Under the pieces are notes generated by a model. The model had not been told where the DNA came from and did not search any database. It saw only the letters and a program-made list of their open reading frames with translations. From contig CAKZMQ010000010.1 of NCBI GenBank assembly GCA_937128795.1, positions 1-64,000 on the forward strand: a stretch of 64,000 nt of DNA. The letters are read 5' to 3'. Both the position numbers and the translations under genes were made by a program. The stretch comes from an uncultured Solirubrobacterales bacterium (GTDB lineage: Bacteria; Actinomycetota; Thermoleophilia; Solirubrobacterales; JACPNS01). Each line of letters starts with the position of its first letter. The stretch's first letter is position 1. Shown here in pieces: positions 16,430 through 20,362 of the stretch.

Positions 16430-17344
16430 ATGTTCGAAATTGACCCTGCATACGAAAGTCTCGATGGAGAGACTGTGTGCCTGTTCTGCGGAAAGACACT
16501 TTCCATGGATCGGCCTGGCGAGATTCACTGGGAACACGTCTTTCCAGCGTGGCTGCAGCGTGAGTACAACTTGGCCGATTGCGAGCTTGTCCTCGCAAAC
16601 AACACCTACATCAGATACCGCAACTTAAAGGTCGCAGCGTGCCAGCCCTGCAACAACTCCCTCGGTAGTCGGATCGAAAGTCGCGTTGCTGCCGGAACCG
16701 CCGATGACCAGACCGCTTGGACCTGGATGCTCAAGATCCACATCGGCATTCTCTTTTGGGAAAGCGGAAAGCCACTGTCGCAGGATCGTCGAACTGCCGA
16801 GTCAGAGCGGGCCATCATGGCCCTACACCCGGATTCATATCGGTTGTTTCGTGCCTCCTTCGCAGCACTGGCGAGTGGTGCCGATTTCTACCCAAACCCG
16901 ATTGGATCGCTTGTCCGTGTCAAACGTGGATTCGATGCATTCAACTGGTCGGATCGCATGTTCAGCAATCGAGCAACGCCGGAGTATCTGTTTTCCGCCG
17001 CAATGATGTCGCTGCGAGGGGAAGCCTGGATCGCCTTCTTTGACGACGGCTCCGCTTGCAACGCGTATCTGAGACGAGTTACCCAAAATGCGATCGAATC
17101 CGGCGACGATCCGACCACCGTTTTTCCAATCGTGATGTATGAGAGATCGCGAATTCCATGGTTTGCTGAGATCAAGGTCTCTGGTGACGAGAGCAGCCCC
17201 GATGCGGTCGTGGTGTCTCCGATGGACAAAAGCAGCTTTCAACAGACGCCCTTTGACAACGACGACGCGAGCTTCTTTGTGAAGACTTACTGGGAGTCGA
17301 CCGAGACAGTTTGGGTGGACTTCGCTTCGCTGGACACTTCTTAG
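16430..17344 (+). CDS. HNH-like zinc-binding nuclease candidate, 304 aa
   Basis: The N-terminal about 85 residues carry an HNH-type finger: CLFCGK, then WEHVFPAWL with the candidate catalytic His, then NNTYIRYRNLKVAACQPCNN with the second Cys pair and a CNN end typical of this group of HNH proteins. The rest (about 90-304) has no motif I recognise and alternates helices and strands. It may be an accessory endonuclease or a second restriction activity. I start at ATG 16430; a TTG at 16406 would add eight residues. It is the first gene after the left bcp repeat and precedes the PLD nuclease by 80 bp on the same strand. Confidence 0.7.
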   Translation: MFEIDPAYESLDGETVCLFCGKTLSMDRPGEIHWEHVFPAWLQREYNLADCELVLANNTYIRYRNLKVAACQPCNNSLGSRIESRVAAGTADDQTAWTWMLKIHIGILFWESGKPLSQDRRTAESERAIMALHPDSYRLFRASFAALASGADFYPNPIGSLVRVKRGFDAFNWSDRMFSNRATPEYLFSAAMMSLRGEAWIAFFDDGSACNAYLRRVTQNAIESGDDPTTVFPIVMYERSRIPWFAEIKVSGDESSPDAVVVSPMDKSSFQQTPFDNDDASFFVKTYWESTETVWVDFASLDTS

Positions 17345-17424
17345 AGAGTCGTCGTCGACAGCTAGCTCGACCCCGACCTCAATCGCGATGCAGGTAATGC
17401 CTACCGCATACGGAACAGGGGGCC

Positions 17425-18717
17425 ATGGCCCCAGAGCTGAACTTCCGGACCCAACCGCTCGAATCTTCGAGCAGCGCTGCGGCATTCATCGCGGATGCGC
17501 TTGAAGACCCTCGAATTGAACATTTCACTGCCGTTGTTGCTTGGGCGCGCTATCGCGGACTGGCACGACTGGCAGAGGCGCTCGACGTTTTTCATTCTGG
17601 GGGCGGCCAATCAACCATTGTTGTCGGATTAGACGAAGGGGGAGCAACACGACCGGGGCTGATTGGGGCGCAGCGGCTCTTCACAAACGCGTACGTCTTT
17701 CACGACCCGACTGCGATGACATTCCACCCGAAGGTCTATCTCGCGGAAGGCCCCACAGCAGCGCGGCTCCTCGTCGGCTCAAGCAACGCTACGCCGGGCG
17801 GACTTTTCACGAACTACGAGGCATCGCTTGAGGCAACTTTTCTTCTCCCCGACGAGGGCGAAGAACCCGCGCTGTTGGACGTACGCCAATTCATCGACGG
17901 CTTGAAGTCCGACCCTCGATCCGCGCATGAACTCACTGATGACTTCATTGAAGAACTCATGCAAAACCCTCGCTACCGGATCGCAGGGCACGAACGTCGT
18001 CGCGCTCCGGCCCCGCAGCAAACGCCCACAGGACTTGACGCAGACGACGTGGATGAGACCGAGACGACCACCGGACAGGCCGACGACCCGCGACTGTTCC
18101 AATCGAGCGATCGCAGCAAGCCGGGCGCTCCCCCGCTGTCTCCAGATGCCCGTGCCGAGCTTGAAGCTCTTGAAACCGATGTCCCCGATTCTGCACGCAA
18201 CCCGGCCTCTCCAGGCGGCACAAACACACGGCCCGCATCAGCTCCCCCACCTGCCGTTCCTGCCACTCCGGCAACCCCGCCCGCTTCGCCAGCCGCGCCA
18301 GCAACCGTTTCGGTTCTCAGCTGGGATAAGAACCTCAGCTCAACCGATGCTCAGCAAAACATCGGACACGGCACTCGGAACCTTCGACTCGTGCGTGGAA
18401 ATCGAGAGATCGAATGGACAACTTGGTTCCGCGATGAGCTGTTCCAATACGAAAACTGGCAAGCCGATCTGGACGTGAATCAGAATCCGATCGAATTGGC
18501 AGAGGTCGAGTTTCTCGTCACGATCGGCGGGCAATCGCATGGTCGCGTGGAGCTAACGGTTAGTCACGCTCCGCATCGTGAATCGCAGCAAGCGAACCAC
18601 GCTTCGGTATTGCAGTGGGGACCGCTGGCGCGGGTACTCCGCGACACCGACTACACCGGAGACCTAGTTGAGATAAAACGTCTGGCCGACGGAAGCTACA
18701 CGCTGACGATCGGTTAG
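17425..18717 (+). CDS. Phospholipase-D-type endonuclease with NgoFVII-like C-terminal domain, 430 aa
   Basis: Residues 1-165 are a PLD-like nuclease domain: FTAVVAWARYRGLARLAEAL, then FHPKVYLAE and LLVGSSNATPGGL, i.e. one HxK-GSxN catalytic set, as in dimeric BfiI/NgoFVII-type restriction enzymes that need no metal. Residues about 190-295 are a Pro/Ala-rich disordered linker. Residues about 296-430 are beta-rich, with LSWDKNLSSTDAQQ, a VSHAPHRESQQANHASVLQWG segment and GDLVEIKRLADGSYTL. This resembles the NgoFVII C-terminal domain, which probably recognises DNA. ATG follows an ACAGGGGG Shine-Dalgarno. It converges on the methyltransferase with 4 bp between stops; together they look like a two-gene type II-like R-M pair. 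Confidence 0.72.
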   Translation: MAPELNFRTQPLESSSSAAAFIADALEDPRIEHFTAVVAWARYRGLARLAEALDVFHSGGGQSTIVVGLDEGGATRPGLIGAQRLFTNAYVFHDPTAMTFHPKVYLAEGPTAARLLVGSSNATPGGLFTNYEASLEATFLLPDEGEEPALLDVRQFIDGLKSDPRSAHELTDDFIEELMQNPRYRIAGHERRRAPAPQQTPTGLDADDVDETETTTGQADDPRLFQSSDRSKPGAPPLSPDARAELEALETDVPDSARNPASPGGTNTRPASAPPPAVPATPATPPASPAAPATVSVLSWDKNLSSTDAQQNIGHGTRNLRLVRGNREIEWTTWFRDELFQYENWQADLDVNQNPIELAEVEFLVTIGGQSHGRVELTVSHAPHRESQQANHASVLQWGPLARVLRDTDYTGDLVEIKRLADGSYTLTIG

Positions 18718-18721
18718 CTAT

Positions 18722-20362
18722 TCAGGCGGGAACGAGTTCCCGCGACGAAGATTTACCGCGATCGGTGCGCCGCAAGGCAAGGGCTTCGCGAGCCTCTGAC
18801 AGGGCCAAGCAGAGATCAGGAGGCAGTATGCCCTCCTCCACCATTAGCCGGTCAGTCTCTTCAATCAGGCTGTCCGAATCTCCCGATCTACTGAGCGCGT
18901 CCAGTCCGCGAAGGTGCGCGCCAAACGTGAGTGCCTTTGGAATCCGCAGCTCCGCGACCTCGGATGGTACTAGCTCAAGGACGCCCCCGCCGAAGCTTCT
19001 TCCGAACAGTTCGGCGCTGAGCAGAGTCAGCGAATTGTGGAATCCCGCCGTGAATGCCGTCGCCGAGTACTCCGGATCGACAATCCACCCGCAGTAGATC
19101 GTGTCTGTCGTAAAAGCCTCCGCCGAATTCAGAATCACTCGCGGAAAATGATGGCTCCGCTTTGACAGCAGTAGATCACCGCGACGAAAGTTTGGAACTC
19201 GATACCACGGCTCGCGGATTCGGCACTTGTACCGCTCGTGCAGCTCAAGAGCCTCGCCTTGCTCGATGTATTCAAGCGGCCTTGGGTACTCCGACGGCTC
19301 TGGCCGCTCAGACCCGAAATCGAGAATCCATCGTCTCGCGCCGACCATCTCCATCGCCGCATGGTCTTCGAGCGTGAACTCCAAACCTTCTGCAAATCGA
19401 GACCGTGGGAGCAATGGCTTTGCCCATTCGTCGAGCTCGAAGCGATCCACAGTTTCGGTCGTGGCCGAAAAGAAGTCATTCGCGCCAGTGACCAGGCTCA
19501 CGTCAAAATTTGCGATTTCCCTGAGCGGCCGCACATGGGCGAGCTTCTCGGCAGCGTGCATCGCATCCAGCGCGGCTGGGCCGAGGAGGTAACGGGTCCA
19601 AGAACCGCTCCCGTCCACCTGGTGGCTCCACTCGACGGTTGCGCCCACACCATCGTGCTCGACAAATGCGACTGGGACGCCTCGCTTCTCGCGTGACGGC
19701 ACACGCCGACCGCTTACCACCGTGACTTCTTGAAGAACACCCGGAAACGATCCCGGCTGAAAAAGGTCAAAGCGAAGATCTGCGGTCTCGCCAACGAACC
19801 ACTCGCGGACCACGCTCGCCGCCATTCCGGTGAAGCACTCCGTAGGGATTACGAACGAGAAAACCCCACCGTGCGCAAGTCGCGACAACGAGCCGAGCAA
19901 CACTGGGATCCAGAGATTCGATACGCCGCCAAACTCGTACCCGAGCCTTTCGGAAAGCAGTTCAGTCGAGCGCCTGTCTGCCGGTGACACAAACTGAAAT
20001 CGGACGAAAGGCGGGTTGCCTATCGCCACGTCGAATTCATCCGTCGCCGACGCCGACCAGTCGAGCGTGCTGCGCGTGAGGACCTCGCCGCCAATTCCCG
20101 ATCGGGCAAGCTCAGCGCGCGCCTGCTCAGCCTCGCCCTCGATCAACTCAAGGCCCAAGAGGCTCTCAACGCGACCCTCCCAACGCAACTCTGAAAGCCC
20201 CCGAAGGAACGCTCCATCGCCGATGCTCGGCTCAAGGACACGTAACCGATCTCGGCCATTGGTCAGCTCCTCGATGCGGTCAAGACACCGCTCAACCAGG
20301 GCGTCCGGAGTGTAAAAACCACCCCTGAGCTTCTCCGGACTAACTGCGGCTGCAACCTTCAT
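18722..20362 (-). CDS. Gamma-class N6-adenine DNA methyltransferase (TaqI/Eco57I-like), 546 aa
   Basis: It transfers methyl groups from S-adenosylmethionine to adenine N6. The order of motifs is that of the gamma class: LRGGFYTPDALVERCLDRI (motif X), VLEPSIGDGAFL (motif I, SAM binding), VAIGNPPFVRF (motif IV, catalytic NPPF). A C-terminal target-recognition region of about 300 residues follows with ANFDVSLVTGANDFF and GDLLLSKRSHHFPR. It should protect the cassette's recognition site from the neighbouring PLD nuclease; the specificity is unknown. I start at ATG 20362 (MKVAAAVSPEK). A frame open 49 codons further upstream looks noncoding (Cys/Pro/Gly-rich) and is not used. No helicase or ATPase accompanies it. 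Confidence 0.85.
   Translation of the reverse strand: MKVAAAVSPEKLRGGFYTPDALVERCLDRIEELTNGRDRLRVLEPSIGDGAFLRGLSELRWEGRVESLLGLELIEGEAEQARAELARSGIGGEVLTRSTLDWSASATDEFDVAIGNPPFVRFQFVSPADRRSTELLSERLGYEFGGVSNLWIPVLLGSLSRLAHGGVFSFVIPTECFTGMAASVVREWFVGETADLRFDLFQPGSFPGVLQEVTVVSGRRVPSREKRGVPVAFVEHDGVGATVEWSHQVDGSGSWTRYLLGPAALDAMHAAEKLAHVRPLREIANFDVSLVTGANDFFSATTETVDRFELDEWAKPLLPRSRFAEGLEFTLEDHAAMEMVGARRWILDFGSERPEPSEYPRPLEYIEQGEALELHERYKCRIREPWYRVPNFRRGDLLLSKRSHHFPRVILNSAEAFTTDTIYCGWIVDPEYSATAFTAGFHNSLTLLSAELFGRSFGGGVLELVPSEVAELRIPKALTFGAHLRGLDALSRSGDSDSLIEETDRLMVEEGILPPDLCLALSEAREALALRRTDRGKSSSRELVPA

Follow-up and report, generated by a model that had tools for sequence, protein, structure and literature searches.

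Which kind of defence system is encoded by the three neighbouring genes at positions 16,430-20,362 of contig CAKZMQ010000010.1 (GCA_937128795.1), which derives from an uncultured Solirubrobacterales bacterium? The window, i.e. the whole stretch of DNA that was analysed, comprises 64,000 nt of this contig, and the cassette in question encodes a phospholipase D (PLD) family nuclease, a DNA methyltransferase (MTase) and an HNH protein, which the original prediction had combined into a compact three-gene mobile unit. Based on the analysis described below, the nuclease and MTase genes very probably constitute a two-gene Type II restriction-modification (RM) system with a BfiI-like nuclease, which was brought in by an insertion at the bcp gene. 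The pair is a variant of PLD-B3 Type II restriction-modification and not a new three-gene system.

All three open reading frames (ORFs) proved to be real and intact. The gene of the PLD-B3 restriction endonuclease (17425-18717, + strand, 430 aa) and that of the MTase (18722-20362, - strand, 546 aa) lie tail to tail, as had been predicted, with 4 nt between their stop codons. At its full length, the MTase ORF spans 18722-20509 (-); alignment to relatives places the likely start at the ATG at 20362, which agrees with the end coordinate given in the original prediction.

The nuclease contains one HxK-GSxN set, consisting of H101, K103 and G118-S119-x-N121, and then E132 (17725-17820, +); all of these residues are invariant in 10 relatives. 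The spacing of H101, K103, N121 and E132 is identical to that reported for the active-site residues H105, K107, N125 and E136 of BfiI (PMC4081073). Pfam showed nothing beyond a weak PLDc_2 match for this protein, and a sequence-only search of the PDB with the nuclease or its C-domain profile yielded no significant match, so that a fold comparison was needed. In the AlphaFold (AF2) model, built on a 10-sequence alignment, a folded PLD catalytic domain (residues 1-188, 17425-17988, +; predicted local distance difference test score (pLDDT) mostly 85-95) is followed by a Pro/Ala-rich linker of about 108 aa (residues 189-296, 17989-18312, +; pLDDT below 50), which is predicted to be disordered and matches the long linker proposed before, and by a folded C-domain (residues 297-430, 18313-18717, +). 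Foldseek returned BfiI (2c1l) as the top PDB fold match to the whole chain (E 2.7e-12); R.NgoAVII (4rct) was also matched at full length (E 1.3e-7), and the match to SauUSI (7clg) covers the PLD domain, which was likewise matched by Nuc and NucT.

When modelled in isolation (pLDDT 90.2, predicted template modelling (TM) score (pTM) 0.84), the C-domain showed fold matches to EcoRII-N (TM-score 0.57), BfiI (0.49), plant ARF B3 domains (ARF1) and LlaJI.R1. Judging from this model, it is a B3-fold domain predicted to recognise DNA. The suggestion of an NgoFVII-like C-terminal domain thus holds for the fold class, but not for the sequence: no NgoFVII model (Pfam RE_NgoFVII) was matched by the nuclease, and some of its relatives match RE_NgoFVII below the cut-off and with the N-terminal PLD part only. 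By fold, BfiI is the nearest relative and NgoAVII comes second; the locus encodes no helicase subunit. Searches of Pfam, NCBIfam, PHROGs and PADLOC gave no dedicated model for the nuclease; automated defence finders may therefore see an orphan methylase here.

PLD-type restriction enzymes are metal-independent and act via a covalent histidine intermediate, and to our knowledge only few of them have been characterised. A review counts more than 40 putative representatives in REBASE (PMC4081073), among which individual relatives of the pair described here may already be included. By analogy to BfiI, the single HxK motif per chain implies a nuclease dimer with a composite active site, which probably cuts unmarked DNA in a metal-independent manner.

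The predicted partner turned out to be an M.Eco57I-type enzyme, as proposed. The MTase matches PF22837 M_Eco57I_C (1.2e-34), Eco57I PF07669 (5.4e-7) and, over its full length, PADLOC MTase_II (2e-106). Its motifs appear in the order GGFYTP, EPSIGDG and GNPPF, i.e. X-I-IV, followed by the C-terminal M_Eco57I_C recognition domain; we take this order to be that of gamma-class N6-adenine enzymes.

In order to assess the conservation of the pair, relatives were gathered from plasmids, genome contigs and viral contigs. For the genome contigs, relatives were found by an alignment-based scan, but not by a single-sequence scan, and some of the fetched loci have short flanks, which makes the absence of a neighbour less certain there. 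Among the loci obtained with PLD queries, an MTase of the window's family adjoins 10/10 of those with a B3 domain vs 1/48 of the PLD relatives without one (Fisher p 2e-10). With a loose motif, some N6/N4-MTase-like ORF was detected at 15/48 of the non-B3 loci. Based on the single non-B3 locus with the window's MTase family, we rejected the notion that the nuclease is merely one of many PLD proteins located near MTases. Together with the window and L071, which was found through its MTase, the 10 B3 loci give 12 full pairs. In ten of these, the two genes converge and no more than 10 nt separate their coding ends; L020 is divergent and L024 co-directional. Across the pairs, the divergences of the B3 domain and the MTase correlate (r 0.86, 0/5000 permutations), in part through shared ancestry. 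The pairs are spread over Chloroflexota, Actinomycetota and Pseudomonadota, plasmids and viral contigs, the nearest being L024 (from an Anaerolinea metagenome-assembled genome) and L020 (from a viral contig), with MTases 47-49% identical to that of the window. Within the phylum, the nuclease was found in only 1/296 genomes, namely the window's own.

The surroundings of the pair indicate how it was acquired. Upstream lies the intact host gene bcp (15912-16373, +), which encodes a thioredoxin-dependent thiol peroxidase (peroxiredoxin; NCBIfam PRK09437, 8.6e-56, above cut-off), and its 3' end was the target of the insertion. A direct repeat of 128 nt of this 3' end, not mentioned in the original prediction, flanks the cassette, with a left copy at 16236-16363 and a right copy at 20622-20749, which marks the right boundary; the two copies are 95% identical (6 differences). 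The insert mostly has a GC content of 57-59% compared to about 62% in its surroundings, which fits acquired DNA. In one congener (G002) the site is empty, with bcp immediately adjacent to the MPAB-type gene that lies downstream. Another (G004; L153, G004:C14:44500-52500, 2726-5737) carries a different insert of 2.3 kb at the same bcp site, for which the bcp 3' end has been duplicated separately (101 nt, 72%) and whose defence-like cargo comprises a PDC-M32A-like fragment, a Type I specificity-like fragment and a TIGR04255-like protein. In a third (G003; L155, G003:C21:50500-58500, about 2500-3900), bcp was not found in intact form; a degenerate remnant of its 3' end lies, together with small other ORFs, upstream of the MPAB gene. 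Considering the empty site, the other cargo and the remnant, the bcp 3' end is a recurrent landing site in these genomes. Taken together, the conserved pairing, the bcp duplication and the empty site bear out the predicted association of a PLD nuclease and a gamma-class N6-adenine MTase on a small mobile unit.

Integrase-type genomic islands, too, are flanked by directly repeated 3' ends of genes and have empty counterparts in related genomes. However, a search of the cassette for an integrase or transposase gave no result, as 16374-20621 encodes only the HNH, PLD and MTase proteins. The integration fits an insertion with long target duplication, or help in trans. As cited in PMC3874152, the former type of insertion (Nobusato et al. 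2000) likewise places an insert between long direct target repeats with an empty site in a relative, whereas the repeat found here derives from the 3' end of a gene that codes for protein and is reused for different cargo within one genus. Between the MTase start and the right repeat, we detected a perfect 16-nt inverted repeat with a 32-nt loop (20450-20513), present as a single copy in the genome, and an adjoining 12-nt palindromic hairpin (20556-20579); the DNA fold of 20440-20585 has a z of -5.5. The inserts of G004 and G003 showed neither structure. As a separate observation, bcp is split mid-gene by about 2.7 kb at L156 (G046:C34:6000-11000), where, as judged by eye, a serine-recombinase-like ORF seems to be present.

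The HNH gene (16430-17344, +, 304 aa) shares the insert between the bcp repeats with the nuclease gene, which it precedes by 80 bp on the same strand, and this arrangement would be expected if HNH protein, nuclease and MTase acted together as a three-gene defence system. The predicted HNH finger itself was recovered: the match to HNH_5 is weak, and six relatives all retain C17/C20, E35-H36, P39, C71/C74 and N75. Its partnership with the pair was rejected after neighbour tests in both directions. An HNH homologue was found near 0/12 other PLD-B3/MTase pairs, so that the trio does not recur in unrelated genomes, an outcome which the original prediction had itself named as speaking against its claim. 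Conversely, the HNH relatives reside in an integrase element or near insertion sequence (IS) elements, recombinases, DUF3883 and error-prone polymerase genes, and no PLD or Eco57I-type genes were detected near them. Since the gene is absent from other pairs and occurs in other mobile contexts, we treat it as passenger cargo; it looks like a bystander of the cassette, for which a separate nuclease function is possible. As, in addition, the G004 insert at the same bcp site carries other genes, joint action of all three proteins is highly improbable.

An NgoAVII/CglI-like mode of ATP-dependent restriction, in which the PLD-B3 protein stays inert until a helicase subunit activates it, would accord with the full-length fold match to R.NgoAVII and with the requirement of R.NgoAVII and R.CglI for the N-protein ATPase (PMC4267653). 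We nevertheless rejected it and regard it as the least likely of the alternatives, because a DEAD/Z1 helicase gene is present neither in the cassette nor consistently beside the 12 other pairs, and the methylases of those systems form 5-methylcytosine (m5C), whereas that of the window is a gamma-class adenine enzyme. The insert is also old or foreign enough for 6 differences to have arisen in 128 nt between its repeats, and it could be a decaying remnant that has kept methylation alone or has lost both activities. With all ORFs intact and H101, K103, N121 and E132 as well as the MTase motifs GDG and NPPF kept, this is very unlikely. Some findings do weigh against a two-gene BfiI-like RM system: BfiI is protected by two methylases and the cassette offers a single M.Eco57I-type methylase; the TM-scores of the isolated C-domain (0.49-0.57) are moderate; part of the mirror-tree correlation reflects common descent; and divergence is high, the MTase being at most about 50% identical to its relatives and the nuclease less, so that these relatives need not share its specificity. 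Regarding the first point, M.Eco57I is reported to modify an asymmetric site on both strands owing to a degenerate specificity (PMC3874165), and one methylase could therefore suffice.

For a two-gene BfiI-like system, the following mechanism can be proposed. The M.Eco57I-type enzyme would recognise a short sequence in the DNA of the host and methylate adenines within it, by analogy on both strands of a quasi-palindromic site, thereby presumably protecting it. The B3 domain would read the same sequence when it is unmethylated, as may be the case in incoming phage DNA, which would then be restricted. Two PLD domains would dimerise to form one metal-independent active site, and the cut would fall at a short fixed distance from the site, reached via the long flexible linker. 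The pair probably arrived as cargo of the 4.4-kb insert at the bcp 3' end, which duplicated that end, and the HNH gene may have accompanied the pair, either as a passenger or as a nuclease gene in its own right.

The MTase by itself is not diagnostic of a PLD-B3 pair. Its relatives adjoin Type IIG enzymes on plasmids, and a second MTase of the same family in the window's own genome (contig C11; L184, G000:C11:166000-173633) converges with the gene of another kind of Type II nuclease, in the vicinity of a DruF-like gene. A PLD-B3 partner was absent beside the MTase of 13 other phylum members and beside this second copy. The MTase tree requires that labels switched at least three times between PLD-B3 and other partners, with long branches as a caveat; as L025 and L083 form very long branches, only the close clade of the window, L020 and L024 was used with confidence. 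B3 domains, too, occur in other settings, once alone as a small protein adjoining an IIG-like methylase (L007:4232-4642) and once fused to an unrelated N-terminus in a non-PLD protein beside an IIG system (L014:10969-12162). It is conceivable, although we consider it rather doubtful, that M.Eco57I-type methylases serve generally as protective partners and swap one nuclease for another (Type IIG, PLD-B3 or another Type II), often in a tail-to-tail arrangement; the B3 domain would then have to remain matched to the motif of the methylase through every swap. In this scenario, cargo might be moved in trans to the integrase-less landing site at bcp or arrive there by homologous recombination, and the two hairpins at 20450-20579 might provide a recombination end. 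Overall, conserved pairs with one methylase represent easily tested candidates, whose B3-domain specificity should be readable from the methylome, and at the bcp site, the exchange of cargo in the absence of an encoded recombinase can be put to the test.

Comparing the pair to known systems, the closest likeness is to the Type IIS enzymes BfiI and BmrI, with which the nuclease shares the N-terminal PLD domain, a single HxK with equal distances to N and E, the C-terminal B3 domain, the lack of a helicase and the best full-length fold match. It differs from them by an identity of only 12% in the fold alignment, by the disordered linker and by the lack of two separate methylases. NgoAVII and CglI (and NgoFVII) likewise have a PLD-B3 nuclease in an RM locus (PMC4267653), but the NgoAVII and CglI loci also encode an m5C methylase and a DEAD/Z1 helicase subunit that is essential, neither of which is present here. 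Finally, M.Eco57I, the companion methylase of Eco57I (Type IIC/IIG), belongs to the same family (PF22837) as the window's MTase; Eco57I itself is a fused restriction, modification and specificity (R-M-S) polypeptide, for which no counterpart was found at the locus, whereas a separate PLD-B3 nuclease is encoded here. The pair differs from BfiI, NgoAVII/CglI and Eco57I alike and does not amount to a new three-gene system: it combines a BfiI-like nuclease with an M.Eco57I-type methylase.

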